The position numbers and the translations under genes were made by a program. Positions 7,848 through 56,200 of a DNA stretch of 64,000 bases are shown one piece after another; within the stretch, counting starts at the first letter, position 1; the number at the start of each line of letters is the position of its first letter. The stretch comes from Diphasiastrum complanatum. Its lineage: Eukaryota; Streptophyta; Lycopodiopsida; Lycopodiales; Lycopodiaceae. Location: the NCBI GenBank assembly GCA_029204225.1, contig CM055113.1, forward strand, positions 19,797,798 to 19,861,797, in the 5' to 3' direction. The notes below the pieces were generated by a model. The model was not told the DNA's origin. It saw only the letters and a program-made list of their open reading frames with translations, and did not search any database.

Positions 7848-8557
7848 CGCAATCAATAGCTTTTGCATCTACCATATGAAATCTTTCTAGAATAGAATTA
7901 GCATACTTCTCTTGACAAATGAAAGTAGATTGAAGACTAATGACTTTTATTCCTAAAATATAATGCAAATTAGCAAGATCATGCACCTCAAACTCCTTCT
8001 TAAGAGCATTCTTGATATCCTTCACATTTTGATTGTCTCCACCACTCAAGATGATATCATCCACATAGATTAGCAAGATGGTAACATCATTTCCAGCAAA
8101 CCTATAATAAAGTGAATGATCATACTCACTCATAACAAAGCCTTGAGGGAGTAAAAAAGTGTAACAGCTTCGCATACCAACTCCTTGATGCTTGCTTAAG
8201 ACCATACAAACTCTTTTGTAGAAGACACACATGATTTGGCTTTGTTGATGAAATGTAGCTCTCGGGTTGCTCCATGTATACTTCCTCCTCAAGATCACCA
8301 TTCAAGAATGCATTTGAAATGTCCATTTGCCATAGATCTCATCCATAAAGTGTAGCAAGTGAACTGATGACTCAAATGCTTACCATCTTTGCCACGGGTG
8401 CAAAGGTCTCATCACAGTCAATTCCTTGTTGTTGAGCACATCCTTTTGCCACTAGCCTTGCCTTGTACTTGTTGATAGATCCATCTTGGTTTGTCTTCAC
8501 CTTGAAGATCCATTTGCATCCAATAGCTTTCTTGTCCTTAGGCAACTGTGGCATCAA
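7848..8557 (-). pseudogene. Inverted copia RT fragment 2 (main RT body)
   Basis: Read from 8557 downward: [75 protein letters not shown] (catalytic YVDD intact) and ILGIKVISLQSTFICQEKYA. This is the whole copia RT palm and fingers in at least three frames. It breaks off at about 7848 inside the DAKAID motif, and the text resumes at 7448. It lies between plus-strand protease and plus-strand integrase. Confidence 0.85.
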
Positions 8558-8559
8558 AT

Positions 8560-35879: not shown

Positions 35880-36550
35880 AACACACAAGCAATCCCAATA
35901 AATCAAATCAATGAAAACCCAACATTTGACCTATCAAACTCATCCAATGTGGCACAAGCTCTTGAACTTTCATACCAACAAATTCAAGCCACTATTAAGC
36001 ATCTTCTTGAAACTAATCAAGAAACCAAGACTTAGAATCTAGGTTAGCCAATCAGAGGAAGCATGTAGTTCCACCTCCCGTAAAAGTGTTTAAGAGGGAA
36101 AAGAAAGATAAGAACTTACAAGTGGTAAGTTGTTGGCTAAATGTTTACTTTGCCATGAACCAATTCCCTGAATCTAACAAGTTATCCACTGTCACCATGT
36201 TCCTTGAAGGAAGAGCCTTAGTTTGGTGGGATGACTTAGTTGCAAAGGGCAATCAACCTTGTACATGGGACGATTTTTGCAAGCTTTTTAGGGATTGTTT
36301 TCTACCACTTTTAGATGACTATGAACACTTTCAAAAGTTGAGTCATCTAACTATGAATAAAGGTTTGGAACAATTTATTCAAGATTTTCATGAGTATCTG
36401 AATCCACTTTATAGCAATATTCCGCCTAAGGTACAAATGTTAATGTTCATTGATGGGTTATCAAAAGTTTATCAATTATGGAAATTTTGTAGTTGTGCTC
36501 ATTTGAATTCAAGAAAATTTATAGAAAAACTTTCCTATTTACCATTGTGA
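35880..36550 (+). pseudogene. Gypsy E gag
   Basis: An open N-terminal stretch (SNVAQALELSYQQIQATIKH) with stops near 36033-36050 is followed by the capsid core from 36086: WLNVYFAMNQFPES, MFLEGRALVWWDDLVAKG, TWDDFCKLFRDCF and KGLEQFIQDFHEYL. This is the retrotransposon gag family (A-x-x-WW followed by TWxxF). It stops at 36548; pol is absent. Confidence 0.75.
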
Positions 36551-36596
36551 TCATTTGAATCCAGGAAAATTTATAAGAAAACTTTCCTATCTACTA
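36497..36596. repeat. Tandem duplication of about 51 bp
   Basis: GCTCATTTGAATTCAAG and GATCATTTGAATCCAGG each lead into AAAATTTATA and ACTTTCCTATYTAC; the copies start 51 bases apart at the end of gypsy E gag. Confidence 0.8.
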
Positions 36597-36599
36597 GCT

Positions 36600-38720
36600 A
36601 AACACATTTATCAACTAAACACTTTAATTTATGTGCATTCCAACCAAGAATGAGTTCCACTTCATATATAAAGTAGGATACTCAAATATATAACATGGTA
36701 CTCTCCAGAAATACATGAGACTGATGGCACATCAATGAGAAAAGCCTAGAAACATTAGATAAACTGCAAGCTCCATTGACCACAGATTCGGTTGGTTATC
36801 TTATATTCTGAACAATCATATCAGTTGATGTCATAAAAAACCTGTGAATTTACTTGACTTTCAAAACATGCAAAGATAAGATCTAACTTTAGTAGGATCT
36901 TGACGTTGTATGAGGTATAATAGGTAAACACAATTGTAGTCCACATTTTTAGCAAAGTTCTTGATGCCTTGTGTATGTGTACACAATGCTGCCCAGATAG
37001 GACAATGTTGACAAAAGATTGTTGACTTTTCTCAGCGTCTATAATTTAACTCTCATCTATAGACAAATACCTTTTACTCAGTCGCCTCAAAAATTGTCTT
37101 TAAATCTTCTCATTCGCTACCCAAAAAATTTACAAAATCAATAAGCTGGTCAATGCAAATATCATTATAATGCTGAAAATTGTGCAGACCTGAATGTTAA
37201 AGGATACATGAATGAATTGGCATACTCAAACATAATCATTTTACCACTATTAAGTAGTTCACCATTGTTTACAAGGCAGTCATCGTATGCTTCATATGAA
37301 AACAGCCGGATTGACTAGTAGAGCTGAAGCAAACCGTCCACAAGACAAATGGATGCCAGAAGGAGCACAATCATATAGGCAGATGTTGATTATCTAAACA
37401 ATGTATTGCAGTATGCCAGATCTCGAGTTATCAGGCCTTTGACCTATGTCAATGTTCTTGTCTGTGCACATACCTGAAAATTATCACCAGCCACAATTAG
37501 GATCATCTCACTAGCTTTGTTCCGAGATTCTAATAAGAAAGCAATATTAAACTATCTGTGATTGGAATAGAAATCTAAATACATCAATAATTACAACTAA
37601 CTGAACAAATAAAGTTATGGATTGAGATCCCTCCCTCCTTGCTGATATGCGATCATTTGCATTGATTGCTTTATTAAAATGGTATAGGAACCAAACATTG
37701 GGCTGGGCCTTTTGAATCTTTGAGCAATGAGCTAATAATGTCAGGTCTAGATTGTTTCAATATTGCCCGAAAAAACAGCAAAGATCTGTACAATAAGTAG
37801 CAAAACTAAAATTGAGATCCAAAATGTTATTGAAGAGTTTATTGTAAGAAATTTCATTTCAGCTTTATTGAATATGACTCACCTGCCAATTTTTTGAGCA
37901 TAACAAGGACAAAGAAACCTCAAGGATCAGATACTTGCTGAGTCTTGACCATGCGTAGGTGTTGATTGTTTTCGGAAATGGCGGTAACATCGTTCACTTC
38001 GACCAAAGCATTCTGAGAACTAGCAGACTCTTACCTAGTAAAGCTACCAGCAGCAACACACTATAATGCGCACCTGTGCTGATCAACCACTCATCCACCA
38101 TCAACAGAAGAGACAAGCTTTTATGACGTTAGAAGTCAGCATTTGTCTCAAATACAGAGGATATAATGTTGTCTATTTTATTGAGAAAATTTAAGCTAAA
38201 CCAAATATTCCACTTCTCAACAACACTATAGACGGTCATTATTCTAGATGAGTATGAAGGATATAATATAATCTAAAGCATTGAAAAATTCAATATTAAA
38301 ACATATATTTTTAGTAAAAAATAAAATAGTGCCAAATACTAATGATCAATCTCTCAATAGATAGGGATGGAGGGCTTAATTCACCTCCAGATTTGTATCT
38401 TTACAAGCAATAAAAAAAAAGAGTAAGGTACAAAAAGACTACGACAAATCTTATGAACTACTCAAGTATGAAGAACCCTCACAAAATAGGTCTAACGACA
38501 AGCTGGATTACATCACAAAATGTCTATATCCTCTACATTCAACCTCCCAGGAGAGTAATTTCGGATCGAAATTCTGTTCTCTCAAATCAAAAATTTTGCC
38601 AAATTTGTTATCATATTCATAACAAAGTGATCACTGCCAAAACTTTTGCAAATAGAAATCTAGACCTAGTAGTTCTAGATAATGCAGAGTGGTATACTTT
38701 GATATCTTTATATAATTCAT
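36600..38720 (-). other. Mostly non-coding; two possible minus-strand exons
   Basis: No long ORF. Two minus-strand segments look like exons: one of about 57 bases ending in a strong donor (minus-strand TTTTCAG followed by GTATGTG, near 37475) and starting after CTTATTAG (near 37531), and one ending in GGCAG followed by GTGAGT near 37890, whose frame reads NDVTAISENNQHLRMVKTQQ with one TGA. They may be decayed exons of the multi-exon gene that follows. No family is recognised. Confidence 0.3.
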
Positions 38721-38721
38721 C

Positions 38722-39693
38722 TTAAGTGGGGATAAAAAAATACTTCATTAAAATCATTTTTCCATATTCTTCTGTCAAATTTTCTAAGTCAGCCACCTGT
38801 AATAAACATAAGACAAAACCTACATTTGAGTATTATTATCTGCTTTCTTTCTGATTTACGGTTTGGGGTTGCAACAGTTCAAACAAGTTTCAGAATGTCA
38901 AATTGAAACGTGCGTCGAAAATCAAAAACATAATGGTGTAGCTATGAATACTTAAGATTTCAAACACATTTTAAAAAGAATAAAACACAACCAAAACATA
39001 ATGAAATTCTCGTAAAAATAGTAAAATATACATGTGATTTCTGTAAAACACATGAATTATACTAGCCGCATGCAAAAGATAGGCAAATCCAATCAATATT
39101 GGGACAAAAGACTAATTACCTTCATTATTTTTTCTTTGAGAGCTCCATTGACTTCTCTTTTGTTGCATTGATTGTTTTGCAAACTCTCCAAATACTTTGG
39201 TGTCATCTACGAGGCAATATAATGGATTTGATCAATAGCAAGAAAATAAAAAGTAATTTTCTGCAGTTAACATCACGTTCTTTGTATACCTTCCATTTTC
39301 TAGTACTGTGAGATATCTTGCATGATGTCGATTCTAACTTTGTACATGACATCTCATTGTCCTGAAAAAAAAAAAAGACAAAAAAATGATTTATAACAAT
39401 TGTATAATTTATCTGTGAATTAAACAAGTTAGATGTGATTATCTTCCCATTGGTAACATGACCTGCAACTGCACTTTTTCAGTGTCGAGGGCCTCGTTGT
39501 CAGACGTCCCATCCAACAAAGTCATGTATGAAACATGACCTACAAAAACAGCAAAAGGCCTACAAGATTGACATTGCTCATTCGACATATTAGACTTAGT
39601 GAATACGAAACAATCCGAAACATTTCTGCATACCTCATAATGAAAAAACTGCATCAATGAGGTAGGTTGATCAACCTCTGCCAAGTCATTTAA
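38722..39693 (-). pseudogene. Candidate multi-exon gene, 3' exons, unknown product
   Basis: Minus-strand segments with acceptor and donor sites follow one another: 39693-39634 (60 nt), 39539-39473 (67 nt), 39361-39290 (72 nt, after a long T-tract and CAG), 39206-39120 (87 nt) and a terminal exon 38796-38722 ending in TAA. Four of the five have lengths divisible by three and all begin in phase 0; the 67-nt one breaks the frame. They encode hydrophilic sequence (LNDLAEVDQPTSLMQFFHYE, VADLENLTEEYGKM). They lie downstream of and on the same strand as the transposase C-terminal part, so they may be its last exons. I do not recognise the family. Confidence 0.35.
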
Positions 39694-39699
39694 CTGAAA

Positions 39700-40640
39700 T
39701 AACAATAAATGCATTAGTGTGGTCCACAAAATACAAACACAGGCCGACGTTACAGAAGAAAGAACCTAATTGCAAGTAACTTGAATAACCAAAAAACATG
39801 TTGTAAATAATTAACTATTATGCATTGTTATCATGTTACATGTGCAAATAACAAATGTTATCATCAATTGAACAACTAATCTTACTTGGACAAAGATGTT
39901 GGACACATTTCAATTGTGAAGTCATCTCACTTATTGGGATTATACATAATGTTATATGCATTATCCACACCAATTACAAGACTACCACAAAGGAATCAAG
40001 GATAATTAAGAAATTTGTATTGAACTTTAAAAATGACCACAATATCATATAACTGACGAATCATGGACATTTGCTCAACAGTGCTCAAAGGAAATTCTTC
40101 AAAATCAATATCAAATAAAAGCGAAAAAACTTTTTTTATTGTTCGCTATACCACATCACAGGTATTCATTTTGAGCTTGCACTTTTCTGGACGGTTTTAT
40201 ATTTAATTGCATGTCATTGCTCCAAAAGAGTAATGCACTAGTCCCAAGACACATATTCTGTATTTTTAGATTCAACTCTCCAAGTGCTGGGTCATGTTTT
40301 TTTTAACCAATTTACACAGATTGCTTTTGTGGAAGTGTCAATGTTGTGTATAACCCCAGGATGTTTGTTCCTTTAAGAGTGTTGCACCAATACAATATCA
40401 TTCTCCTCAAACCAAGGAGGGATACATCCTGGATAACCGAGCTCTAGCAGCCGTTTTCAGACACTTAAATCTCTGGTCTCGTAAGCAACAATATGAGATC
40501 TATGCGGGAGGGGAATAAAGTTGTGTAGCAATGATGTGATTGGCCTCACACAATCCCAGTTGTAAGGAAGGTGTGCCTTGTCCAAAATGCTCATTCCCGT
40601 TACAAAATCAATTTTTAAGCCTTATTCACCTCCTTCTTCT
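39700..40640. other. No recognisable gene
   Basis: AT-rich sequence between the candidate 3' exons and the transposase fragment. The open frames are short and lack signatures. Confidence 0.4.
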
Positions 40641-40661
40641 TGGATATGTTGTCGATAGTAC

Positions 40662-41724
40662 TCAGCGCCAAAGAAGATCATAATCTTTCCATGGTGTTGC
40701 ATGAAAAAAAAAAGACTTTATTTGTGCTTTCCAATGTCCAACGCCAACATTCACATTCAAACCATCCATTCGAACAACAACATGTTGTCCTAGGGCATAA
40801 ACATCACCATCAAAAAATACCTTTTTGTAAGCGGTGTCCTGTTCAAAGAGGCCATTGCATTCACTTACGTTCCAAAAATGTTTGGCATACTTCAATTCCT
40901 CTTCTAACGTCGGACGATACTATTTTCTTTTCTTGGTGATAACAATCCCCTTGGTTTCAAGCAACTCTTCGCACGATGTTCCACAATTATTTGCATTGCA
41001 TTGCTTCCATAGATTCCTTGCTTGTGACACTGATGACACCTCTAAGATACACTGTGTATGCATAGGAAAACATGTTGAAGCTTCCTCACCATGGCGTGCA
41101 TAACCATCAAGAAAAACCAGACAATTATGGAGATCATTAGGCATCCTATGATTTGGCATAAGACCATCCACATCTTGTTGACAATTCTGGAAAACCTTTG
41201 CAAACAACTTTCTTGCAAAAAAATGCGGATAAGTAATCTCATTCATTTTGTTGTTTGTCGAGATGTTTACGTAGGTGACAACCTTTCGTTCAAAATCATA
41301 GCACCAATATATATCGTGGGATCCATGGCGATACATGTCGTCCAACAATTCTCCATTTCTTGTAACAAAAAACCAATGCTATTTTTGGTACTTGAGAACT
41401 CACAAAGCCCAACAAGACAAACTTGAACAAATAGATTGACGTTAACGGTGTGAACCTACAATGTGTTCCAAACGAGATGAGTTAGCACCATAATATTCCT
41501 CACTGCGGACCCTCTATGATAGAAATAGGCATGCTCTCCATGGACCGACCCTCGCTTCTACTGTAATTGTAGAAAATATGTGCTATGTCTATCAACAGTA
41601 ATCCAAGCTCCAAGGATGTTCTTGTGATGTCGTCCATGTTTGTCAAGATACAAGGTAAGCACCATTGGACAAACTTTTTGGTTTTCTTCCACTTTAAAGT
41701 TGCCATGGTACTTGCTCGATACAT
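40662..41724 (-). pseudogene. KDZ/Plavaka-like transposase, C-terminal part
   Basis: Minus-strand frames 41724-41500, 41348-40920 and 40895-40662. The middle one has DIYWCYDFERKVVTYVNIST followed by NNKMNEITY, which matches the C-terminal W.Y.FER.......NNK..E.T block of KDZ/Plavaka- and CACTA-type transposases. The last one (KVFFDGDVYALGQHVVVR, then GHWKAQIKSFFFH) looks like the BAH-like tail found after that block. Frameshifts separate the pieces. The N-terminal DDE part lies at 50710-51457 on the same strand, almost 9 kb away. Confidence 0.55.
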
Positions 41725-41981
41725 GCAGTAATAGTTAGTTTAGCATGAGATGTAATAACTTCTCTTCATGCTCGTTCCCAAATTCAGGACTAGAGCTTTA
41801 AGACTAAAAATGTTGGTGTGCTCAATGCAAAAACTGAAGCGGGAGAGGCAAAACTTTTGAAATCACTGTATGCTTATAATGAAATATGAGGCGGGACGAT
41901 TTTTCAATGTGACATAAACATTACAAAAGTAAGGAATGCTAGATCTATTCATATTGATTTACTGTAGGTAGATTCATTTAC
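41725..41981. other. Boundary region between transposase and inserted block
   Basis: Short frames only. Somewhere here the minus-strand transposase text ends and the plus-strand ORF begins. I could not identify terminal inverted repeats. Confidence 0.35.
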
Positions 41982-43210
41982 ATGATTGTAGCTTTAACAA
42001 TGGCAATGTTCCATTTGCATGTTGCTCTTCTGATGGAATGCACTCCAATTATTAAGAAAAATGCGAAAGTTGTAGAGAATGTTGTAGCAATACTTAGAGA
42101 ATTGAGAATGAAGAATCATATGAATATAGATTTGTGGGTGGATGGATCAATTTATCCTAATGATCCAGCTACTAATTTGTGTCCAGATTTTAAGTCTGTA
42201 ACTCATCTTCTCAAATATGTATGTGAAGGAAATAGCGGATTACTTGGATATTGTCAAAGGTTGCGAGATATTGGAATGCATAGCATATCTTGTCTAAATC
42301 AACAATTATAGTTTGCTAATCAACAATTGCAACTTGCAAATCAACAATTGCTTCATTATGTGCAACACACTAGTGCTGAAAACAATATGAAAAGTGTTTT
42401 GCCAATTTCATTAAAATATGTTCACATATGCACATTGCATGCTGAGGTTCATATTATTGAAAAACTAATTTACTTGTATATTCTACTAGCATGGAATCAT
42501 AAACCAGAGTCAGTGGCTAAAGCAACAATTAGGAGGTTGGAAATAGTTCTGTCAAATGCAGGACTACATAAAGGGAATGTCACAATTGAAAAAAGTTATA
42601 GACTCTCAGGGAAAAAAGGAAACGTTCCTAATAAGCCATCAATTGGAGGTGGAGCTACACAAACATTGGAAGGAAGTAATCGAGTGGAAAAGGGACAAGT
42701 GTGGACCAACTTAGACAAACTCATAGGTTTTATCAAGAAAGAAAACCTATCATCAGAAGATATGAGGACTTTGCAAAATCATTGCACCACATTTGTAAAA
42801 TCTATACATGATTGTTGGGAAAAAGACAACGTTACTCATTACATGGTGCTAATCTATATCATTATCTGGTACTTTTCTCATTCAGGCTTATATTTTTTTC
42901 TCCTGATGTAACTAATCAAAACTATAGTTTGCAACACATCCTTCTTCATCATGCAACTTATTTTGCAAAGGGACATGGGAACTTAAGTATCTGGTCATCA
43001 CAAGGCATGGAAAAATCTCATTGGCAAGCAAGGGGAGCATTTCATAGAGCAACAAATCATGGAGGACACAATTCAAGAAATAAATATTTAGTTCAACTTT
43101 TTTAGTGGTTTTACAGAAGAGCACAATTTAGATATCAAGCTAAAAACTCGCCAAGTATTACAATATTTCGAAAGGCATTCAAATTCATTACAAAAGAGAG
43201 ATCCTTGTAA
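41982..43210 (+). pseudogene. Unclassified transposon-type protein, two exons
   Basis: Frames 41982-42311 and 42327-42868 read as one text apart from a TAG at 42309-42311. A 59-nt GT-AG intron (42869-42927) joins in frame to QHILLHHATYFAKGHGNL and SSQGMEKSHWQARGAFHRA, then a TAG (43103) before WFYRRAQFR. A short Gln-rich heptad (FANQQLQLANQQLLHY) lies in the middle. The combination CTLHAEVHIIEKL ... HGNL...SSQGMEK...RAT.HGG resembles C-termini of unclassified transposon-encoded proteins that I recall from invertebrate genomes. This is a memory-based likeness, not a search. It faces the 475-aa gene tail to tail. Confidence 0.4.
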
Positions 43211-43239
43211 TATATCAAAAATCTATTACAGAATATTAT

Positions 43240-44801
43240 TTAATTATCATCATCATCCTCTTCAAGATTCAGACGGATGGTATTGTCATGAAGGAATAAT
43301 CTCCTTTCATATGGATCCAAAAATTCTAAATTTTTCCTCTTGCTCATATCAATGTAACCCGAATAAAGGGCCATTGCAGATGATCTTTTGGTAGTCTCAT
43401 TGAGAGTATAACCCAATATCTTGATAGCCAAATCTCTTTTCACAAAAATTATTTTATATGTTTCCCTTTCGTACTTATGGCCTCCTAAACAAACCGATAA
43501 TGATTTGATGGCCATAATAACAGTGATTGCATATGGATTATAAGATGAATGATATATACAAATCTCATTATTCTGAAAGTTTTTCGAATAATGAGATAGA
43601 GAAACATCTTTTCTCCCGGTGGATACACCTCGGACGTCTCCATGTCTCATACCAAAGGCTTCTATTTCAATAGCATTCTATAAATGAGAAAAGAAAATAA
43701 ATTTAGAATGATACATAATACTGCAAACTCAATAAGAAAACTGAACAATATCAATACCAATAAGAAATAAGAAAATTGAGCAATATCAATACCAATATAA
43801 TATCTACTTACCAGATCATAATCATCGTAATCAATGACATTTGCTCTGCTGATGTCATGTCCTCCAATGGCCTCTACATTTTTGGAGGGGATATATCTAG
43901 CCCTAGGGGAATATCTTTTCTGAAATTCCAAAAATTCCTCCTCTGTAGGCAAAGTCTTTTCATAGGCTTTAGATTTTTCAATCATGACCTCCAAGGCCTC
44001 ATTGCCAGATTTCCAATTGCCATCCTTATCATAATCTATCTCACTTTCAAGGTCATCATATGAGTAATCAACAATGTCAGAAAATTCTGATAAATTTTGA
44101 GCAAAAATTGAGAGGATTTCATCCTCTCTCAGATTCAATACATCTTCTATATCATCAAATGAAATATAACATTCATTATTTATAAAATATAAAGGAACAT
44201 CAAGTAGAGTTAATTGATTAACAGAAGATGCAGATGGAAGAAAATCAGAGAGGATTATAGAACGAGGGAGAGTTTTTTGATAATCTGAAGCCATAGAAGC
44301 TTCAGCTTCAACCCCTATATCAGTATCTGCATCATTTACATCAACTAAAGCACGTGTAGATGCTTCGATCAATGGAACAGTTAAAGATTCAACAGACTCA
44401 TCATCTGGAATTTCAGCAGATATGTAGAACACAAAAGCCATTCCTTTGATTAGAAGGTGACATATTCTTTTGTGGATATCACATGATATATTTCTTTTGA
44501 AATGGTCATGCAGGTTAGAGTACTTTCTATTGTGTTTATGCTTAGAGGATGGTTGGGAATGTACGAGGTCCTGAAAATGAATGAAACAAAAATTATCTAT
44601 ATCCATGACAAGAGTACTAATAATCTGAGAAAAATTATCAAGATAAGAAATTAAATTATAACGATTTTCATAAACTAGCTTATCAATATCAAAGAGAGCA
44701 AAAAAAATACTAGCAAAATACTCTAATTTGTCAGATGGAATGTCACTGGCATTAAAAAAATCCATAAGTTTGTCATCTGAGGCCATGGAGAAACTAGCCA
44801 T
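43240..44801 (-). CDS. Unknown acidic protein, 475 aa, two exons
   Basis: Exon 1 is 44801-43812 (330 codons from ATG, MASFSMASDDKLMDFFNASD). Exon 2 is 43677-43240 (145 codons and TAA). The 134-nt intron has a textbook donor (CTG followed by GTAAGTAG) and acceptor (TTTATAG), and the junction keeps the frame (DYDL then NAIEIEAF). No stop or shift occurs in either exon, in contrast to all neighbours. Residues 1-130 are helical and aromatic, 140-330 strongly acidic (DDIEDVLNLREDEILSIF, DYSYDDLESEIDYDKDGN), and the C-terminus ends in EEDDDDN. No family is recognised. It diverges from the histone-ULP1 gene across a region with the 16-bp motif array; co-regulation is inferred. Confidence 0.6.
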
Positions 44802-45002
44802 ATTGAATCCGATATCGGTTCAACGCGACAGATAAATATCGGTAGAAAAATAAAGCAAAGTGCACGCGTTGATATGATATGGTAAGGCCGAGAATGAAAA
44901 TTTTTAAAAAGAACTGGTCGGCAGTGGCTGATATCGATTCAGCGTGCCAGAATACGAGCATGCACAGCAAGGGTTGGCGCGCGTCGATTTGATATCGGGA
45001 GA

Positions 45003-46297
45003 ATGAAGAAAAACAAGAAGGCTAGAGAGTTCAGAATAAAAGATTATAGAATCGAAATAAGGCAAGTGGTGCACATATTTATAGCCAATTCCTGTTGATC
45101 ACAGCCATACATCTGTCAAATAACGAATTGTGATTTACAGCCTATATTTATCAACCAATCAGAATGAGACTGTACCTAAACTGAAATACATTGACTAGTC
45201 CTGTACTAGATTCAACTAATCATCATTAGCCCTGACCCTAGAATCTGTACCTGCGCCGGAATGCAATAAATAGAAAATTACTAGCCTCCTAGAATAATCA
45301 TTAAAAAAATTGTAAACAATTGATTGATGGATATCATTGAAAAACGTGAACGAGGAGAATTATTACAATCTCTCGTCCTATTGAAGCACCGTAAAGACGA
45401 ATTTTTTTTTTTAAAGATAATGTTCATTCAGAACATTTTCATAAGTCTTTCATTATGCGTTCTAGTAATATTTTTCTGCATATGGGATATCGGATCAACG
45501 CGCCTAGCAAACGATGTATTAGTTGCATTTGGACCTCGCGTGTCAAATAGCTATTCCAGGAAAAAAAATATTGTTGAAATTTTCGAACCTATTGGACCAT
45601 ATATGCATGATCAAAGCTTGATTCGGAAGACTCTTCATAATGGCCAAAGTTATGCAGAATATATCGAATCAAGCTCCGATCATTCTTATTGCGTCCAATA
45701 TCGGATGAGCGCGCAAGAATACATACTATGGTTGTCAAATGATTTATATGCGCGTTGACTAGCTATTGGGTGAAAATCTGGCTTTTGGTATTTTCAAAAA
45801 TTATAATTATTGGATATAAAAAAGGTCTTATATTTAAAGCTTAACATTGTCGAATTCAGCATTAAATGGTAGAAGTGTGATATTATACTTTTGTAGCATT
45901 AATTGTAAATGTGATCATACTTTATTTGAAATTAAATCTGTTTAATTCGATATGGACTAATCATTTTGAAGATTGATGGATATTTAGATTGATTTGATTG
46001 ACAAGCCTCCTAGTAATCATCATCGTAATACGAACCACCACGTTTGCAATCATTTCTGATTTTCTCTATATATACTGATCGACGACGCTGAATTTTTTTT
46101 GCTTATAGTTAATTGCATCCATGCGATATTGATTGAGCGCACTCGAAACCAACTTTTTTCAATCTGTTACTACTCGCACACGCCCATCCGCTACCAGCTT
46201 ACGTAATTGTTGAGCTCCGGTATCGCTTCGACGCGTCCGACCTGAGATCTGATCTTGTAATCAACATTATCGCGCGCTGATCCGCTACTACACATTA
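45003..46297. promoter_or_regulatory. Divergent promoter region of the 475-aa and histone-ULP1 genes
   Basis: About 1.5 kb (44802-46297) separates the two divergent start codons. It contains most copies of the 16-bp motif and no protein signature; a 144-codon plus frame at 45324-45758 is Ser/Leu-rich and judged spurious. AT-rich stretches could hold TATA boxes, but none can be assigned. Confidence 0.4.
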
Positions 46298-46787
46298 ATG
46301 GCGCAGACCAAGCAGACAGCACGTGGGCATTCAGGTGGAATACCAATTTCAGGTGCGGGTCAGGGAAATCCACAACCGTCACCTCGTCCACCACCACCTC
46401 CTCCTAGGCCAAGGGGCAGAAAAAGAGACCCCCCATGGCTCAAGGATATTCGGAAGCTTCAAAAGACAAATAATCTTCTGATTCCGAAATCTCACATACA
46501 GAGATCCATCAGGTAGGTGACAAGAAGTCTATCTACAGATGTGAGATGGACGATAACGGCAATTGAGGCGCTGCACACAACATATGAGGATTTCCAGGTG
46601 AAAATTTTTTTTGATACTGTTGTTGCAAGTGTCCATGCCAAGAGGGTGATCATCATGTCCAAGGATTTCAACATAGTGTTCAGGCTTTGAGACACATATG
46701 ACAAGTTTGTTGAATAATTTAGACATGCTCCCTTCTCTCACGGTTCAGAGAGGAGAAAACGCAAGCAATCTCAACCAACCCAGTTTG
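46298..46787 (+). pseudogene. Histone H3 variant-like domain (CENH3-like fold)
   Basis: Starts MAQTKQTARGHSGG, close to the H3 tail ARTKQTARKSTGG, then a Pro-rich linker and RGRKRDPP. The histone fold follows in exact register: LKDIRKLQKTNNLLIP (alphaN), HIQRSIR-VTRSLSTDVRW (alpha1), ITAIEALHTTYEDFQVKIFF (alpha2), SVHAKRVIIMSKDFN (loop 2/alpha3). LLIP, RWT, YEDF and KDF are typical of plant CENH3 rather than canonical H3. Three nonsense codons lie at TAG 46514, TGA 46688 and TAA 46715, each explicable by C-to-T. A basic NLS-like RRKRKQ follows. It would have packed in nucleosomes; now it is broken. Confidence 0.75.
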
Positions 46788-48373
46788 TTATTCGTATACA
46801 GAGTGGGAGTGTTTCAAAGAAGAGGAGTCTCTTGACCCTCCATCTAAAGCGAGGGATTTTTCCAAGCCAACTCCTCTGAATACTATTCTTTATTCAATTC
46901 ATTCTCCTCCTAATTCTCCTTCTCCTCCTCCTAAGTCTCCTTCTTCTCCTTCCACTCCATCTTTAACTTCTCCTGCTAAATCTTCTTCTCCACCTCCTAA
47001 ATCTCCTCCTCCTCCTCAACCCGTAAATATTAGTTCCCCTTCTCCTGTTGTTGGAAGTGATTTAGATGATTTTGTTATCGTAAAGGTAGAATCAATTTTG
47101 AATGACAATTCTTTATGTGGTTTATATGTGTTACTTCAGGCACTCCCTGCACTTGCCTTTGTAAATAGTCCTCAATATGTACAGTATGACCAATTGTTAA
47201 ATACGTATTTTAAAGGTTTAGGTCCTCGATACAGTTTTAGGATGTCGAAGACCAATGTTGGTCTCCCCCTTTCTAGTTTAGATAAAGTAGGGATGAAATG
47301 CTAGGGGACAATGTAGGAGGTGGGGCCATTCAGTATTGGATGGAGTTCTTCCAGACCCCATTGTTTATAGATGTTGCATTGTTTCCCCTTCAATTCATGG
47401 CAGTAGTTGATTTCCCTGATTTCAAAAGTCTGCACGATGATATGCTCCAATACGTCAGACTGGGGACTCCAATTCTCGTGCTGCCATACATAACAAAGTA
47501 AGTGACTATTTTTCAGATTTTATTTTATTGAATTTTTCATATAAATTTTGATTTCACATTGATTCTCATAAATTTCTTGTTTTCTGATTTTAGTGATCAT
47601 TGGAGCTTATATGTGTTGTCCCTGTACGTCAATGATGAGGGTGTGTGTAATCTAGTTTGTTTGAAGATGAACTCTATTACACACACACACACACAAAATT
47701 GCCAGGACCCGTATACAGAAAATACTGGAACTATTTCCAGTACCAAATGCAAAAGCATACTCGAAGCTGAAAATGGTTGATGCAGAGGTATAAATTTTTC
47801 AATATTGGTTCGACGTGCCCTTGTAATTATTGATTGGTTTATTTTCCCAACGTGTGCGCTGATCCGATATTCAATCAAAAAATTTTGATATCGGATCGAC
47901 GCGCGCTTGTTTCCTTTGTAGATTTTATTCCTACATCCTGGGCATTGATCCGATATCTCATAATGTTCAAATTTGGATTTTGCAGTTGTGGCTGGTATAC
48001 CGTATGCAATGCCAAACACTTTTTTAATTGGCTTGAATTACAAGATGGACTTCCAAATCTGGAAGAGGTAGTATTCGATTAATTACTTTTAATTGTGTTT
48101 TTATTTTTTTCATATACAAACTCCTATTAACTGATCTTTGATTAATTACATTTAACTGTGTTTATGTTTTCTTTTTAGTTTAAATGCCCTAAGGTCTCCC
48201 CAATGGAGATAATGCACTTCAAGCAAGAGACCATAAAGATTGTGATCGAAAATTCATATCCAATTGCAGTGGCCGAGTGTTCTCCACCCAAGCTACTTCC
48301 AACTAGAGAAATGGATTTAGAGATCATAGATAGTTTATTCTGCTTAAATATTCATCTCACTTTATGTGGATGA
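46788..48373 (+). pseudogene. Proline-rich linker and ULP1/C48-like cysteine protease domain
   Basis: After a frame change the text continues EEESLDPPSKARDF and about 60 residues of Ser/Pro repeats (PPKSPSSPSTP). VESILNDNSLCGLYVLLQAL, a one-base indel near 47288 and YWMEFFQTPLF lead to LGTPILVLPYIT. Intron 47498-47593 (GTAAGT...TTTTAG) splices in frame to NDHWSLYVLSL with the catalytic His (47598-47600). The Asp position is Asn (KMNSI, 47670-47672). An (AC)8 run at 47679 shifts the frame. The Cys exon 47986-48067 (SCGWYTVCNAKHFFNWL) splices in phase to 48179-48373. This His-Asp-Cys layout is that of ULP1/SENP deSUMOylases, which plant CACTA and Mutator elements also carry. The phase from the His exon to the Cys exon does not fit. 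Confidence 0.7.
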
Positions 48374-48549
48374 GACACATGTACAAATTTTTTTAATAGA
48401 AATATTCTTACAGTTTTACTATGGTTGTTCTTACATGTTTTTTTTTCCTCTTATCAATTCAGGTTATGATTCATTCATCTTCAATTTCTACTGTTTTTCG
48501 ACATGTTTGTGTTTCATAGCCTTGGTCTGCCTTGCCTTTACCATGGTCT

Positions 48550-48680
48550 TTTTTTGGATAAGTTCAGAATGATGATCTGATCAAACCTTTGCCACAACCA
48601 ATCCAAACATGCAACATTAGTTCACTTAGATTTGTCGTAGCAAAGCTTTGATCAGATCATCATCTGAACATATCCAAATA
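48550..48680. repeat. Foldback/MITE-like inverted repeat
   Basis: The left arm from 48556 (GGATAAGTTCAGAATGATGA, then TCTGATCAAA) pairs with the reverse complement of 48637-48675 with few mismatches. The arms are about 40 bases and the spacer about 40 bases. The ends are TTTTGGATA/TATCCAAATA. Confidence 0.75.
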
Positions 48681-48783
48681 TGCCAAGACAAGGGCAATAC
48701 ATACCAAGACAATGAAGACCAAAAATACAACCGATATATACGAGACTTCAACAAGGGCAAGCGTTCAATTGGAGTTCAAGTGA

Positions 48784-48930
48784 CTGAAGGTCTCCCCAAT
48801 GGAAATAGTGCATTTCCTGCAGGAGACAATGAATCTTGCTATTGAAAACTCATATTATGTAGTTGCAATTACATTGTGTTTTGCACCATGGAAATGGAGA
48901 TCATAGAAATGAATGAGCCTCATAGAAAAA
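48784..48930 (+). pseudogene. Partial duplicate of the last ULP1-gene exon
   Basis: GAAGGTCTCCCCAATGGAAA and the following 130 bases repeat 48187-48330 with many changes, including ATGGAGATCATAGA at the end. The foldback element lies between original and copy. The copy has no open frame. Confidence 0.65.
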
Positions 48931-49899
48931 GTGGTTCATATATATTCTTAAATGATGTATACAAAAAATTGTATTACATAATACAAAATTCCATAGTTCA
49001 TAATCTGTGGATCTTCAATTTCGATGGATGTTCCAATGTCTTTGCATTTTATATTCTCTTCATGCCTTACTCTTACCTGCACAAGAGAAATTGTTTAGTT
49101 ATATATTTTATGAAACTGATTCACTTAGAAATAGAAAAAAAGGAATATTTTTATATGGCATAACGTACCTTTACACCATTCAATCGAAATTGATGGTACT
49201 GAGGTAGATCGAATTGCAACATGTCTAATTCTGATCGAATGTGATTGAGACACCAATCTTCCTCGACTTCAACCTTTGCAAGAATGTTGTCATTTCTTTT
49301 CACTGTTATCTAAAGTTGCTCTTGAGGGTTTATACCAAAATCTTGATCAAGTGGCTTCCAAACATTTTTGCATTCAATCCATCTTCTATAATACAGCAAC
49401 AAAGTGAGCATTTGCTTTTCGATGTGATATCTAAATGTCATGGATGAGTAACATATGCTGCACTCAACTTGCTGATTTTGTTTTGTATCCCAATCATCAT
49501 CCAACAACTCGGCGATTATATCAGCACTCAAGTCCTTACAAATAAACATTGTTTTCATTCTCCGAACATTGCATTTGGAAAAAAAATCAACAAAAATTGT
49601 AAAAGGTAGATACCAACTTAATCTATTATTCTTTGATCCAGTGCTGCATTTTAATATACTCTGAATATTAATATATAGCCTAGATCAAAAACTTTTTGAA
49701 ATTGCTGCATCAGGAGAAATCCATTCGTCACTCAAAAAATCTGGTAGAGGATATGGCTCTAATCTACCAACTAAACCATTTTTATCAGGAAAATATGTGT
49801 GATCATAATAAAAAACTCCTGAGTCTAAAAGTGATTTTGGAGAATGACCTTTATATTGTAAAATACCGATATCCGAATGTATGACATCAATTATTCCTG
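48931..49899. other. No clear gene; one weak minus-strand ORF
   Basis: A minus frame at 49558-49310 (82 codons) contains CSICYSSMTFRYH, a possible CxxC...H metal-binding fragment, but there is no family match and no splice support. The rest has short AT-rich frames. Confidence 0.3.
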
Positions 49900-50349
49900 C
49901 AATCGATTGAACTGATTGTCATTCAAAGAAACTTGATGGATACAAATCTGCAAAACCAGCAAAAACATCTCAAGAAAAATATAATTTAAAGACAATGATA
50001 AATATAAAGACATTGAATCTGAAAATTTACAATTGCATTTCCTTCTATCATTTGGATTCAGATCATGAATGTTGAGCTCATTGTGAAGATAAGCATGTTG
50101 AACTAAAACTTCCGTGATAGATTGATCGGCAGGTGATACTTTAAAATCCATTATCCTGCCTTTCCAAGAGCTTCTATATATGTTATTCGATCTTTTTCTT
50201 TTTTGGAATGAGCCTTTTGCAGAGGGATGCATTAGGATCCATTGATATTTTCGATATATTCTTGGTATCCATTGATCTTCTGCATTTTTTTCATTGCAAA
50301 TATTGATTGCATCAATGGTTCCTCTTGGTCTCTGATTATGTGTAGCCAT
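49900..50349 (-). CDS. Small basic protein of unknown function, two exons
   Basis: Exon 1 starts at the ATG at 50349 (MATHNQRPRGTIDAINICN) and runs about 106 codons through KGSFQKRKRSNNIYRSSWKG to a GTAAAT donor near 50032. An acceptor TTTTGCAG near 49950 leads to a short last exon. The unspliced frame stays open to 49891 (152 codons) but with a low-complexity SLYLSLSLN end, so splicing is preferred. The strand is that of the transposase. No family is recognised. Confidence 0.4.
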
Positions 50350-50359
50350 TATTTGAAAA

Positions 50360-50709
50360 TACGAGTACGCAAGTTGAGATCGGAGAGAATGTAGAGATTG
50401 TGAGGTAAACTTAAAAATGACAAGAAAATGAGAGATAGATTGAAGAAAATGAGAGGTATACCTATGAATGACAAGAAGTTTCTCAACTACAAGGATTAGT
50501 TAACCACAGTTTATGAATATTGACGTCAAATCAACCTCGAGTGAACAATTACGGGCAGCATAAGAGTATTCGGGCAGTAATTGTGGTCCAATCACAATTG
50601 TTTGTTCTGCCCGGCGGGATATTTGAAAATCACAAAAATTTGGCCAAGAAAGTTAAATACAATTTCCATCCGTCAACCACTGTTACAGTTCGTCACAGAT
50701 GGACACCAT
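50360..50709. other. No recognisable gene
   Basis: Upstream region of the small basic gene and downstream end of the transposase N-part. Local repeat GGGCAG near 50550-50578. Confidence 0.35.
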
Positions 50710-51457
50710 TCATTGGGACACATAAGTGTTGAAAGCGTGCGAAGTCAAAAACAGCATCTTGACAAAGGGCCCATTTTGAGTTCTAATATCTCCTAATGGA
50801 TTGAAACCGTATAGATCATACAATCTCCAAAATATAGATTCTCCAGACAACCCTACACCTTTTAGAATTTCATCTTTGTTGCCTCGGGATGATGTCTTCT
50901 TTGCATTGCATAGAGCCTCTACCATTTCATTGATTGTTCGTTTAGGGGGTGGATACCTAGCTTGGCACCTATTGCCATCATAAACATAGCGTCCAATAAA
51001 GCCATCCCCTCGTGGGTCAAGAGTAGCTCTTGCCATGTCCCGTCGACAAAATGCTTGTCCACCATCTTTGAAAAGCCCGAGTTTGCATTGCGCTGGATGT
51101 TCCCTAGTTGCTATCATTAACGTTGCACGTAGTGTGCAATTCCTTGTCATCGAGGCCATCACATTATAGCCAAATATAAGATCGAGCGGATAATTGTATT
51201 GTACATCCAATCCATCACAAAAGAGAGCTTCGAGGTCAAAAATCAAGGGTTGTAAAAATACAGCAAATGCACCATCCACAGTGCGTATAAGATTCTTGCA
51301 ACTAAGTGGAATAAATATAACTGGTAGAATATCCACACATGAGCTTTTTCCCGCATTCAACGGTCACAACTCTATCACATAACAGTCCTTTTGTGTCGTG
51401 CGTGATGTTTGAAAACCGTCAGTATGAAGGAGTAGTGCGAAATTTCTAGGGTCTCCC
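50710..51457 (-). pseudogene. KDZ/Plavaka-like transposase, catalytic part
   Basis: The minus frame from 51457 begins NFALLLHTDGFQTSRTTQ, whose aspartate (51418-51420) is the likely first DDE acid. A stop near 51370 is followed by 216 open codons: VIFIPLSCKNLIRTVDGAFA, FLQPLIFDLEALFCDGLDV, MIATREHPAQCKLGLFKDGG and CRRD, then RYPPPKRTINEMV, LSGESIFWRLYDLYGFNPL. The DHPAQ...CRRC and PP.R and GeSi..rLy..ygf.p blocks are those of KDZ/Plavaka transposases (CACTA relatives). The 5' part is cut off by the LTR that begins at 51458. Confidence 0.6.
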
Positions 51458-52233
51458 TGTTAAAAAACCCACGTGGGAGTTATTACTCTGTAGTGGGTTT
51501 CTTTCCTTGCCTATCCTCACCCCAAGATCTAATCAATCTAGCATCGAGGAGATGAAGTTAGTTGTCACGCGTGGATGCTCCCATGAGAGCGATAGTATAG
51601 TTCAGATTTCAGCATGAATAGAAGATCCAAATCTAACTCTAACATCCATTAACCCTAAGCATTAACACTACATCCATTAACACTAGATACACAATGAAGA
51701 TAGCTTACTCTTTCTCTCTCTCCCTTTCTCTCTCATAAAAAGTATAAAAACATGCAATCCCAACAACAATCAGATCCAACAATTAGCAAAACTCATTAAA
51801 AGCATGAGAGATGTAGGAAAAGTGATAGAGAGCAAGGACATTCATAAATTCATTTCACAAGAGAACCAATCTGCTTTATTGAAATGAAGATATGTACATG
51901 TGTAGGAACTCGAGTTGGTCCCTCTTTATAGTAGAGAGGAGGACCTTGGCTTCTAAATCCTATTGGTCCATTTTTGCCTCCCTAATTATGCAAATTTAAA
52001 AAAGAGTGGGAACCATCCAAATTGGAGGGAAACCCAACTTTATTCATTAACTTGACATTTAGGCCCTGCGACATTAAAAGTCCCGCAAAAAAGGCCTAAA
52101 GTCTTTTTATTGACTTATAACTAATCAAATAACTATGTGATCATCGGGTTGGACTTACACACGCAGGGTGCCAAATCCCTCTCACTTGTTAACTAGGGTT
52201 AGGATTGCCTTGGGATCCACAAACCCTCCAACA
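51458..52233 (-). repeat. Gypsy G 3' LTR (776 bp), inserted in the transposase gene
   Basis: The minus strand starts TGTTGGAGGGTTTGTGG after a TTTTGGTGGGGGATA polypurine tract and ends TTTTTTAACA, giving TGTT...AACA ends. On its outer side the transposase text begins at once. Family differs from the F/I LTRs. Confidence 0.75.
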
Positions 52234-52250
52234 ATATCCCCCACCAAAAT
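52234..52250 (-). other. Polypurine tract of gypsy G
   Basis: TTTTGGTGGGGGATAT on the minus strand directly before the LTR start. Confidence 0.65.
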
Positions 52251-52269
52251 TGGTGGCGGTCTCACGACA

Positions 52270-53650
52270 CCTGTGAGATGCAGTTATTGTGGACTTTTAT
52301 TTGCTTCACGTCGAATCTTTATTAAATGATACCGCACCTTCTCCATGAAATCGAGTTGGATAGTGTTGAAATCTAAATTGTGCAGCAAAAAACAACGGTG
52401 GGCACCAGCAATCCACTTTGAAGTTGTCCAGAATGTGAATCGAGATTACCAGGAGACTCCCATCATTGCGGCACGGAAATACAGTCGAGCCACATGCAAC
52501 TGATCCTTGATGCTTTCTGAGGCCATTGGCTTATTTGGATCGAATGCCAAAGGAGAAAGACAATCATCCCATCTCGATGCCACAGATGCCAACAGAGTCA
52601 AGTCTTTCGCAAAAAGCGTTGACTACCTCATTGTTGGATCGAGAGAGTGTATATACTCCTGCTGGTATGCTTGTAGTGCCCGGTGAAAATCCACTAAAAT
52701 TTTCCAACTGAAAGGTTGGTGGATGATTGGCCAGTTTGGCGCCAATCCCAAATCCTTCCACTTATTCATGCGCGGCATCGGTACATAATATGGATCTACG
52801 CGCAATTGGCGAGGGCTGGCCACATAACTCCTGATAGATTCTGGAGTTTTCTCAAAAACTGTAACTCTCCAAGCTGGCTGCTCTCTCAATGTGAGTATTT
52901 TATCCAATTCATTGTCGGCCTCTATTTCAGAGGTATTAAACTTAAGGACCCAACCACCACACGAGGACTCATGAGGATGTTGTGCTAAAAAGCTCTGAAT
53001 CTGGTCCTTGACGCTAATTGGTCTTCTGAACAACAATGTGGTCCTTGATGAAGATGGACCCGGTTGCACTACCTGTGGAAGTGGCTGTTGTTCTTCAACT
53101 TCAGGGGCTCCACCTTGGTCCATGCCCGAATCCAACCATGTATCCATAGGTGCATCAACTTGGTGCGGAGGGGAGAATTGCGGCATGACCGAAACTGATA
53201 TTTGAGGCCCAGCTTCCAGCACCTGAGTGGCAGCCTTTCCATATGCGTTGATGGTTGCTTTAGCCTTTGCCAACTCAGTTGAAGCTGTACCTTTGAATCT
53301 GTCAAAGTGGCCTTGGAATCCTTGAAGAGCCACTTTGTAGGTTTCAACCTTTTTAAACAAATATGCGATCTCTGTTGGAGTTACCGGATGATCAGGTATT
53401 TGCATTTGTAGATACACATCACGCTCAAGGGTGGTCGCATCCAATTCACCTTGGAGATGTGTGCGATCTTGGTCAGACATTTGCAGTTGACCCTGGAATA
53501 GCTGCACTTGTTGCTTTGCATCCTGCATGGCCTTGTCCACCTGATCTTGGGTAGATGTAAGCGCATTTTGCAGTGAGCTAACATATTCTTATAGGCGATC
53601 AGCCAATTGTTGTGCTGCCTTCTTCTCAGCTTCAAATTTAGCTTCATGTT
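52270..53650 (-). pseudogene. 3' ORF (coiled coil, RVD motif) of gypsy G
   Basis: 305 codons are open from 53540 to 52623, with extensions on both sides in the same or shifted frames. A coiled coil (MQDAKQQVQLFQGQLQMSDQ, ELDATTLERDVYLQMQI, KVETYKVALQGFQGHFDRF), a Pro-rich linker and the conserved end (PAWRVTVFEKTPESIRSYVA, SPRQLRVDPYYVPMPRMNKW) match the ORF at 13430-16013. The text after the stop continues QLHVARLYFRAAMMGVSW to about 52320. It ends right before the PPT, which places it as an env-position ORF. Integrase and RT are missing upstream. Confidence 0.65.
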
Positions 53651-54500
53651 ACGTGGCTTGTTTCTTCATCATTGACCCTATAATCCTGTCTTCCTTCAAT
53701 ATAACTGCCTTTGGCAGTTTTACTGTTGGTTCATCAGGAATATTACACACTCCAAATCTGGTCGGATCCATATGATTTAGAATTTGCTCATCAGTAAGTT
53801 CTGCATTGTCATCATAAGTCAAGGCATGACTCACAAGAATGAGTTCATCTTCAATCGGATTTAGGTTCCGTTGATATCCATGCTACATTCAGCACATTCA
53901 ATGAAAAAGTGATCGGTGTATCAAAAGTTCAATCCAATAATTAAATCTCGTTCCAATCTGACTGATTATCTTGTTGACACATATATCTTGTTGTACAGTC
54001 AATCGTTGCAAGAGCTTCATTCCAGTTGACAGTATCGGTTTGAGAATCGTAATGAACTCCCAAATTTTTCTCTGGTCGGTCACAAGTATGATCTGTTGTT
54101 GATGAATCATCATCCTCTTTTTGAACCACTGGTTTGATAGTCCAAGTTGTAGGATCAACCTTGACTGCACGTTCACGATTTTCAAAAGTGATTTTCCCAG
54201 TACTCCAGTTATGAATTACTTGCGCAACTCGTAACCGTGGGCGTCCCAATAGGACTCGGTAGACATTTAGTGCTTCTGGTAAGTCCATTACTACATAAGT
54301 AATGATGAACTGTACTCTGGCAATTCTGACAGGTATATCTTCAACCATTCCTCGTGGTCGAACTGTCATTTGATTAGCTAGGTTAATGGCAAAAGTCACA
54401 GGATTTATCTTTGTAAGACCCCATTTTGCACATAGCTTTGTAAAAATCAGGTTAACTCTCGAACCGCCATCTATCACAACTACTTCATTAGGAAATTGTC
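53649..54500 (-). pseudogene. Gypsy aspartic protease and protease-RT linker
   Basis: VVVIDGGSRVNLIF carries the catalytic D in a DGGS form used by some plant gypsy elements. MDLPEALNVYRVLLGRPRLR matches the conserved LGRPWL motif. A linker follows (53834-53649: LPKAVILKEDRIIGSMMKK) and breaks off exactly where the coiled-coil ORF begins, so RT, RNase H and integrase have been deleted. Confidence 0.75.
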
Positions 54501-54636
54501 TATGCTATATCGGTTGAGTAATATTTTTTTGTTCACTTTCCCAAGCTGCTCCGACATGGAGTACTTCATTAGATTCTTCAAATCCAGTACAAAAAAATGG
54601 TTCCTAATGGACTTCTGGTTCGATTTGAGTTAACTT

Positions 54637-56200
54637 CTACGCTAATACTTCTTTTACTTTTGGAACCAACTTCAGCAACTCTCCCAATGAAATATTGATC
54701 TTACTAGACAAAATATTCATGAGAAGTTCTATTTGCAGTGCTTCCAGTTCAGTCATCTTGAAGGGTTCTTCATGATGATGCAACTGAACATTCATATTTG
54801 TATGTGAATTTTTCGGTGACTGCACACGAACTTCGGCTGTTGCTCTAGCAGCTTCAAGCTCCTCTTCTTCTTGCAGATGTTTAATCCATTGCCTCATATC
54901 CCGATATCTTCTTTTTACAGTATGAAGATTTGGATAGACTCCAGATGCTGTTGATATATCAGTTAATGGTATAGAATCAGCAGGTACTAGATCTACTACC
55001 GGTTCTTTCTACTTCTGTGCTTTGGTGACCACCATCAAGGGTACACTTGGTTTATTCTGAGCTATTAGTCTTTGTTTGATTGTTGTCAAATTTATAGGAG
55101 CTGTAGCCGGTGGTGGCTTCATTTTTGCTGGACACTCCTTATAGCAATGCCCATAACCATAGTCACGACAGAATGGTACAAATTTTTCTTTATTTGGACA
55201 TTTTGCAACTCTGTGATTTTCTCCAAATGCAAAGCATCCAAGTGGTGCTCTGGTCCAGTTTCTAGATGCTTGTTGTTGCACGGCAACATAAATAGCATAT
55301 TGTTATGAAGATCCACCTTCTTGATCATTACTATAGTTCCATTGCTCGGCACTTCTGTAAGATTCTGGTTCCATCAAATTGGCAGGAGGAGCGAGGTGCT
55401 TTTGTGGGGCAAGTAAGGCTAACCATTCCGGGTATCCAAGAGCAGATTGTTGAGGTCTAGCTGTTGGATTTTCTCCATAATGTGGTTCTCAATATCCCAT
55501 CTAGGCATACCGTTGCTGAATTATCTGAGGATTGAAGTTGCAAAAAATAGTCTCATGATCAGAAGAATTACAGAAATGGCATATACTGATTTCTATTTAT
55601 TTTTTCAATTGAGAACACTCATTCACTGTGTGATTTCTTGTACAAATTGAACACCAGACATTTTCCCTAGTAGGAAAAGTCTTTGCAAACTTCTCAGGTT
55701 CCTTCTTCGCTTGTCCATGAAAATCTTCCAATGCTTTGATCTTCGCATCAAATTGCGACTACAACTTTTCCATCTGTTTCTGCTGGTTCTTCCCGAGATT
55801 CTCGAACTCACTGGGCATCATTTCTGTAGTAGCATTGACATTCGATGGTGTAATAGTGGTGGATGTCGTAGTGGTCTATCCTGCTGTATAAGGCAATATA
55901 CTGATATTCGACTCATCGTCTGAATCTTCATCTTCCTCCCAAATTGCATCAGCCATAGCATTTTGCAAAAGTGCGTACTCATTATGGCGTTTCAGCTCAC
56001 GTCTGATCCTTTAAGGTAAACCTGACAGAAACTACATAATCATGGCATTTTCATTAATCAGCTCAGGTTCACACTCAGATCTGAGGCGTTTTACCCGTTC
56101 AATGTAATCTCAAACCATTTCCCACTTTCCCATTTTAATTTTACTTAAAAGTAGGAAAGGGTCTTCCATAAACTTCCAAGGTTTGAACCATGTAATAAGG
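54637..56200 (-). pseudogene. Gypsy gag with four zinc-knuckle-like motifs
   Basis: From about 56200 down: the capsid end (YIERVKRLRSECEPELINEN), an acidic stretch, a Lys-rich helix (KKEPEKFAKTFPTRENVW) and four consecutive knuckle-like motifs: CSICTRNHTVNEC, CHFCNSSDHETIFC, CFAFGENHRVAKC and FCRDYGYGHCYKEC. In the last two the second cysteine is replaced by Phe or Tyr. A Glu-rich helix (HLQEEEELEAARATAEVRVQ) then leads to the protease. Several stops and shifts break the frame. Confidence 0.6.

Follow-up and report, generated by a model that had tools for sequence, protein, structure and literature searches.

In terms of function, the nearest model comes from Arabidopsis. The VANC proteins of Arabidopsis Vandal elements cause the copies that encode them to lose silent marks, according to one study (PMC10398659). 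ULP1 domains in plant transposons are already known, and the Vandal genes named KIU (Kaonashi) carry such a domain, whose precise role is called unknown (PMC13317346). In a further Arabidopsis study, ULP1d was needed for the arrival of aKNL2 at centromeres, and a SUMO-site mutant of aKNL2 lost CENH3 binding (PMC12903445). In the open-access literature, searched with limited terms and with most subscription journals outside the scope, no histone-encoding transposon or histone-ULP1 gene was found.

The window, the whole stretch of 64,000 nucleotides that was analysed (G000:C22:19797798-19861797), was taken from a Diphasiastrum complanatum genome of 1.745 Gb in 5,176 contigs. As judged from sequence, the analysis confirmed that positions 46298-48373 hold a decayed copy of a four-exon gene, with a predicted H3-like fold, a basic/proline linker and an Ulp1-type (C48) peptidase. 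All four exons lie on the plus strand. Exon 1 (46298..47497) contains the H3-like tail tip and the histone fold (together 46298 to about 46741), the basic/proline linker and a lead-in segment to the ULP1 domain. Exon 2 (47594..47787) carries the peptidase His (47598) and Asn (47670) and has a matching exon in the relatives L027, L031 and L034; exon 3 (47986..48067), matched by tblastn to L031, carries the predicted catalytic Cys (47987); and exon 4 (48179..48373), with a matching exon in the open copies, forms the C-terminal end. The MAQTKQTAR start at 46298 and the His, Asn and Cys codons were all located where an earlier note on this DNA had placed them. Intron 1 was identical in place and phase to that of the open relatives, and introns 2 and 3 lay at corresponding places, with exons 2 and 3 of the window out of frame. 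The copy is also interrupted, as the same note had claimed: the frame that opens at 46298 has stops at 46514, 46688 and 46715, together with a frame change after the histone part, and a (CA)n tract lies near 47678.

When the translated pieces of the window were compared with Pfam, the piece 46517-46690 alone matched the Histone family (E 3.3e-8, 34.2 bits; cut-off 26.4), and the histone piece upstream of it, taken alone, stayed under this cut-off at 13.1 bits. The pieces 46723-47304, 47286-47501, 47532-47780, 47834-48082 and 48179-48373 matched zero Pfam families even at E 10. The profile match expected of the window translations thus held for the histone piece and failed for the ULP1 pieces, so the ULP1 assignment of the window leans on its relatives. 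In the search for relatives, 46298-46822 matched L047 with 49% identity (E 6.9e-36), 47301-47690 matched the same locus with 26% identity (E 2.8e-6), and for the Cys exon (47984-48052) tblastn to L031 gave 61% identity across 23 residues (E 8.8e-4). As a control, the reversed window was searched and gave zero matches at E 0.01. A chance resemblance or an assembly artefact, which the partial histone match and zero ULP1 match of the window copy alone might suggest, was ruled out by the E value to L047 versus none in the reversed window, by 122 relatives and by C48 matches above the cut-off in open copies, and its probability is negligible.

In three relatives, L027, L031 and L034, the four exons joined at GT-AG sites to give an open protein with an H3-like fold, a basic and proline linker, and a peptidase with the motifs DHW, KMNS and PQQN(D/N)SFSCGWY, in that order. 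The spliced peptidase parts of all three exceeded the Pfam Peptidase_C48 cut-off of 20.7 bits (41.7, 41.8 and 43.3 bits, respectively). Since the gene is unbroken in relatives of the same genome, the fusion is real. The proposal that an H3-like histone and a ULP1-type peptidase share one gene was therefore upheld: the two parts stood in one open gene in these three loci and were joined in 122 of 122 scored joining exons, rather than always forming separate genes. A Pfam C48 search of the raw genome returned only three places, a low number that probably reflects the division of the peptidase among short exons.

The C48 catalytic set (His-Asp-Gln-Cys) was incomplete in this family. His, Gln and Cys were present, and Asp was replaced by Asn in L027, L031, L034, L047 and the window. 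The substitution that had been noted at 47670 is present; it is no sign of decay, since the open copies keep the Asn, and on the aligned sequences Asn for Asp is a family trait. Papain uses Asn in a Cys-His-Asn set, so by analogy the Asn would not exclude peptidase activity. In L047, a 527-codon open frame ran from MARTKQTTR through the histone, the linker, a read-through of intron 1 and the peptidase His and Asn, and the Cys exon lay just behind it. Damage was seen in the fusion genes of other relatives, namely a damaged acceptor with shifts or stops (L026 and L030), one shift (L032), a stop within the His motif (L029 and L033), or missing later exons (L028 and L025).

The fusion gene is carried by a mobile element, as had been supposed from the window alone. 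L030 is a complete element of 9,451 bp; its 35-bp inverted repeats are perfect and start with CATTAGAGGAG. Similar elements were found at L029 (9,371 bp) and L031 (9,245 bp, with one change in the left end). A 32-base end motif, searched with up to two mismatches, occurred 2,024 times in the genome (1,034 forward and 990 reverse), and the reversed control occurred 0 times. In the orientation of the fusion, the gene order was candidate transposase (+), second gene (-), fusion (+) and fourth gene (-), and tblastx revealed the same four genes in the window in the order and orientation of L030. It is a DNA transposon with terminal inverted repeats and many dispersed copies, and the window carries an insertion of it. 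A 3-bp target duplication was found at one of six end pairs (L030) and was absent at L027+L039, L029, L031, L035/L036 and L037/L038; L043/L044 and L045/L046 were left out as end pairs because their flanks are reverse-complementary to each other. The ends of these two pairs lie 32-42 kb apart, which points to large inverted duplications or to the assembly of both arms.

The candidate transposase was so named from its position alone. It matched zero Pfam families above the cut-off, and in a PDB profile search its alignment gave one match at chance level (E 0.55); the fourth-gene alignment gave no match in the same search. The structure model of the candidate transposase had a mean pLDDT of 38.1. 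In a deletion derivative, L048:72-1307, candidate-transposase coding sequence runs in frame into the H3-ULP1 exon within one 412-codon open frame. The C-terminal part of the fourth gene (window 49310-49684; L030:945-1796; L010:2989-3354) appeared beta-grasp-like by eye. ULP1-type peptidases cut ubiquitin-like proteins, so that a beta-grasp (ubiquitin-like) domain in the fourth gene, judged by eye, would suit a ULP1 peptidase well as a partner. In this reading, the peptidase might process the element's own proteins, such as the fourth-gene product, with the histone part merely holding it on element DNA. The presence of the fourth gene in lineages A and B (defined below) and in the window fits such a role, as does the appearance of this C-terminal stretch; the very low confidence of the fourth-gene model (mean pLDDT 39.6) speaks against it, and we consider self-processing improbable.

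In the window, the whole decayed element covers about 8.9 kb (41890..50798, without strand assignment), with four genes collinear with L030 and weakly supported ends. The probable left, transposase-side terminal repeat is a weak one (41890..41939, plus strand), obtained by local alignment to the family repeat including TAAGGAATGC with its first 5 bases extrapolated, and its score was reached by 45 of 1000 shuffles. Remnants of the candidate transposase gene were recognised by tblastx to L030 at 42054-42275, 42384-42650 and 42986-43150 (plus strand). The second gene (43240..44819, minus strand) consists of two reading frames and was 27% identical to its L029 counterpart. The fourth gene (49310..50499, minus strand) was 43% identical to the L025 counterpart and 48% and 56% identical to that of L030, and both genes were collinear in tblastx. 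The probable right terminal repeat (50764..50798, minus strand; ...CTCCTAATG on the plus strand) lies 6 bases away from the position that scaling from L030 predicts, near 50,804, and its score was reached by 19 of 1000 shuffles. Compared with each other, the two ends of the window element gave no match above chance (377 of 1000 shuffles reached the score), and when 36000-43200 was searched against 50300-56000 for inverted-repeat seeds, all pairs that emerged were short and chance-like.

The flanking sequence indicates that the window element sits inside another transposable element. One half of a gene of this host element was found at 40920..41378 and the other at 50803..51363, both on the minus strand, the latter with weak Transposase_21 similarity below the cut-off (E 0.081). 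The halves are close together in eight relatives, at a distance of 502-573 bp, versus 9,424 bp in the window. This spacing implies an insert of 8.85-8.92 kb, and the proposed ends are 8.91 kb apart. The host element is multicopy, and the split of about 0.5 kb in its gene in the eight relatives is probably an intron. On an unplaced contig, the stretch G000:C1022:31217-41546 contains the two host-element halves, with identities and match spacing equal to those in the window, and is probably a second haplotype or a duplicated assembly of the window locus.

To describe the family, a Pfam histone search of the genome was used, in which 153 matches were counted (6,325 candidates, 150 scored). Among the matches listed, 13 canonical H3 loci scored about 164 bits and the others were H3-like at 82-110 bits, many of them in long open frames. 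The 20 H3-like loci fetched first comprised 15 of lineage A, four of lineage B (L025-L028) and one of lineage D (L017); L029-L034 and L048 were later added to B and L050 to A, and L047, L049 and the window make up lineage C. Lineage B has the H3 fold, the linker and the start of the ULP1 domain in a single exon, and lineage A has a long proline-rich protein with the H3 fold at its C-terminal end. With exon 1 of L025 as the query, at least 122 places were found (9,841 candidates at first look); all 122 scored had 84-100% identity, and each covered at least residues 10-313 of 329. Stops were absent from 22 of these places and present, one or more, in 100. These places are no proof of an intact protease because the exon holds only the peptidase lead-in, without His or Cys. 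The L047 query gave at least 102 rows (85 candidates scored), 29 of which ran from residue 37 or earlier to residue 405 or later; six of the 29, L047 itself among them, extended through the His and Asn stretch. With regard to a viral origin, a scan of viral_contigs with the fusion alignment gave 109 pattern matches and zero confirmed relatives; as it was based on two histone peptides only, it tells little about the other genes of the element.

Both a histone and a ULP1 query matched all 14 of the B, C and D loci. At L017, the stronger ULP1 match possibly comes from a nested B-like copy at 8359-8719, and the locus's own frame holds only the ULP1 start. In lineage A, a nearby ULP1 match was seen at 0 of 16 loci tested, each having a histone match only, which indicated that the histone and peptidase parts are separable. 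Lineage A (L009-L016, L018-L024 and L050) represents a second H3-bearing element lineage. A MARTKQTAR-like tip, seen in ten of its loci, precedes the proline-rich stretch and the H3 fold; relatives of the fourth gene were present and, by eye, a second-gene relative lay nearby.

The histone part was then compared with H3 and CENH3. The exon-1 proteins of L026 and L025 scored 95.8 and 95.4 bits against Pfam Histone (cut-off 26.4), and the histone part of L031 matched PDB H3 with E 7.4e-21. R69, R83, H113, K115, R116 and D123 were kept in 10 of 10 element rows, and T118 in nine, with Ile in the decayed window copy; we take these seven to be DNA-contact or dimer residues. R49, R72 and C110 varied (Ser49 and Leu110 in lineage B, Gln72 in L025, Gln49 in lineage A). 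Identity to host H3 stood at 36% in the window copy and reached 44-53% in the remaining element rows. The element rows were 33-54% identical to fission-yeast Cnp1 and 38-49% identical to Arabidopsis CENH3 (HTR12). All element rows share LIP at 61-63 with HTR12, and RW at 83-84 is found in lineage C, HTR12 and Cnp1. Loop 1 had the length of H3 in the window, L047, L049, L017 and three lineage-A rows, and lineage B had only one extra residue; no row of A, C or D had the longer CENH3-type loop. In a 13-row tree, no grouping of the elements with CENH3 was found, HTR12 stood on a long branch, and four of ten inner branches were open. A search of the genome for a host CENH3, with HTR12 as the query, gave 150 scored places, namely 13 canonical H3 loci plus H3-like matches of lower score. 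In view of the length of loop 1 and the open branches of the tree, we call the element histone an H3 variant, without assigning its origin; the CENH3 identity given in the earlier note was not supported.

These comparisons also bear on integration targeting, in which the histone part would guide insertion into certain chromatin, whether centromeric or of another kind, and the peptidase would free kinetochore or chromatin proteins of SUMO so that the site opens. In favour of this reading, LIP at 61-63, and RW in lineage C, are shared with plant CENH3, and the need of aKNL2 for ULP1d to reach centromeres in Arabidopsis (PMC12903445) keeps the centromeric version alive. End motifs on C1 were visibly denser at about 65-67 and 95-101 Mb among the matches listed, but this density was read from the first 100 listed (C1 and part of C2). 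Fusion copies found with the L025 query lay on many chromosomes with no single cluster by eye, which together with the H3-length loop 1 of lineages A, C and D argues against targeting, and we judge it unlikely.

The tails of the element histones differed from those of the host. Lys9 was present in 0 of 24 element tails (23 tip-pattern matches and L027) versus 8 of 8 host H3 genes; the pattern search requires a tip-like start, so that tails without a tip are uncounted, which limits the claim about the tip more than that about Lys9. The tail of L047 contains RPKS with a Lys at position 10, one residue past 9, which from its placement could be a shifted Lys9. Past residue 8, the tails of the lineages were visibly unlike H3 and unlike each other, save for GG in the window. 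The tip itself was exact or nearly so in lineage A, L047 and the window; that of L049 was shorter, and lineage B (MDRRKQTRR) and L017 (MARTESTAR) had looser versions. The H3K9 methyl mark silences plant transposons, and a tail with the Lys4 tip and without Lys9 or the rest of the H3 tail would be unable to carry this mark. Taken furthest, this would mean a lineage of transposons equipped with a histone of their own: an H3 variant with a Lys4 tip, lacking Lys9 and other silencing sites and coupled to a SUMO protease, with which the element could build or seed, on its own DNA, chromatin that the host is unable to mark for silencing. We regard this stronger version as rather doubtful.

Selection was estimated from silent and replacement changes. 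Between L026 and six lineage-B copies, the histone part showed a dS of 0.46-0.52, a dN of 0.055-0.082 and a ratio of 0.12-0.17, the six comparisons sharing one branch. The ULP1-side part of L026 had a dS of only 0.08-0.16. At L026:4838-5227, silent divergence from the six relatives was thus roughly three- to sixfold greater in the histone part than on the ULP1 side. L026 looks mosaic because the high dS is confined to the histone part, and this pattern suggests exchange between element copies. Among themselves, the six other B copies had histone-part ratios of 0.49-1.14, which is as expected for copies decaying after insertion and gives no support for selection. Ratios in the ULP1-side part of B pairs ranged from 0.13 to 1.8 on few changes, and silent sites between lineages were saturated. 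Taken together, the alignments support past selection on the histone part and give no proof of it for the peptidase, for which the conserved motif residues are better evidence of constraint than the ratios. The near-neutral ratios among recent copies, like the stops in 100 of 122 exon-1 places, are what would be expected if the H3-ULP1 gene had been swallowed by chance and were merely carried as functionless cargo. Such cargo would hardly keep its domain order, exon layout and His/Asn/Gln/Cys residues across lineages with saturated silent sites, and the ratio of 0.12-0.17 at L026 and the existence of open copies also count against it; we give this explanation little credence.

The gene, its domains, the element, its copies and the tail differences were observed, and the window almost certainly carries a copy, old and broken, of a DNA element that has four genes and terminal inverted repeats, the third gene being an H3-ULP1 fusion. 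For the protein, we propose that it acts as a chromatin-targeted anti-silencing factor, a mechanism drawn by analogy that we hold tentatively, at somewhat less than even odds. The H3-like fold would bind H4 as its partner and either become part of the element's nucleosomes or compete for them, since it keeps several DNA-contact and H3-H3' interface residues. Its tail would escape H3K9 methylation, and the tethered ULP1-type peptidase would strip SUMO from nearby silencing or chromatin proteins. The action would be much like that proposed for VANC and KIU in Vandal elements, except that a histone, and not a DNA-binding protein, would direct it. We infer nucleosome entry, SUMO cleavage and anti-silencing from sequence and by analogy, and several observations count against anti-silencing, namely the Asn for Asp, the varied H3 residues, the separable parts, the looser tips and the Lys of L047. 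For the whole statement, which covers the identity of the element and fusion as well as the anti-silencing mechanism, we estimate a probability of about 0.5. The fusion may be the transposon's means of handling host chromatin, and the tie of ULP1 to an H3 variant points to chromatin as the place where ULP1 would work.

Compared with known systems, the element resembles Vandal elements with KIU in being a plant DNA element with a non-transposase gene that carries a ULP1-type domain. It differs in the partner of this domain: as described for KIU, ULP1 is joined to a VANC-type protein, whereas here it is joined to a histone. A review calls Vandals non-TIR elements, and this element has 35-bp terminal inverted repeats. 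Zero Pfam MULE transposase matches were found in the element proteins scanned, which speaks against membership in Vandal/KIU. The element is like CACTA/En-Spm elements in being a multi-gene element with terminal inverted repeats, and its terminal CATTAG resembles CACTA ends; it differs in that its scanned proteins gave no Transposase_21 match and a 3-bp duplication was found at only one of six end pairs. With H3 and CENH3 variants, the histone part shares the H3 fold, several nucleosome-interface residues and the H3-like tail tip, but it is encoded by a mobile element, is 36-53% identical to host H3, has the rest of the tail replaced and, in lineages B and C, is joined to a peptidase. The peptidase part resembles plant C48 SUMO proteases (ULP1/OTS/ESD4) in its His...Gln...Cys motifs and its Pfam C48 match, and differs in the Asn for the catalytic Asp and in the histone at its N-terminus. 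What sets this gene apart from the ULP1 domains already known in plant transposons is the histone as an unusual partner domain, and if nucleosome entry proves true, the element would bring along a histone of its own that is hard to silence.
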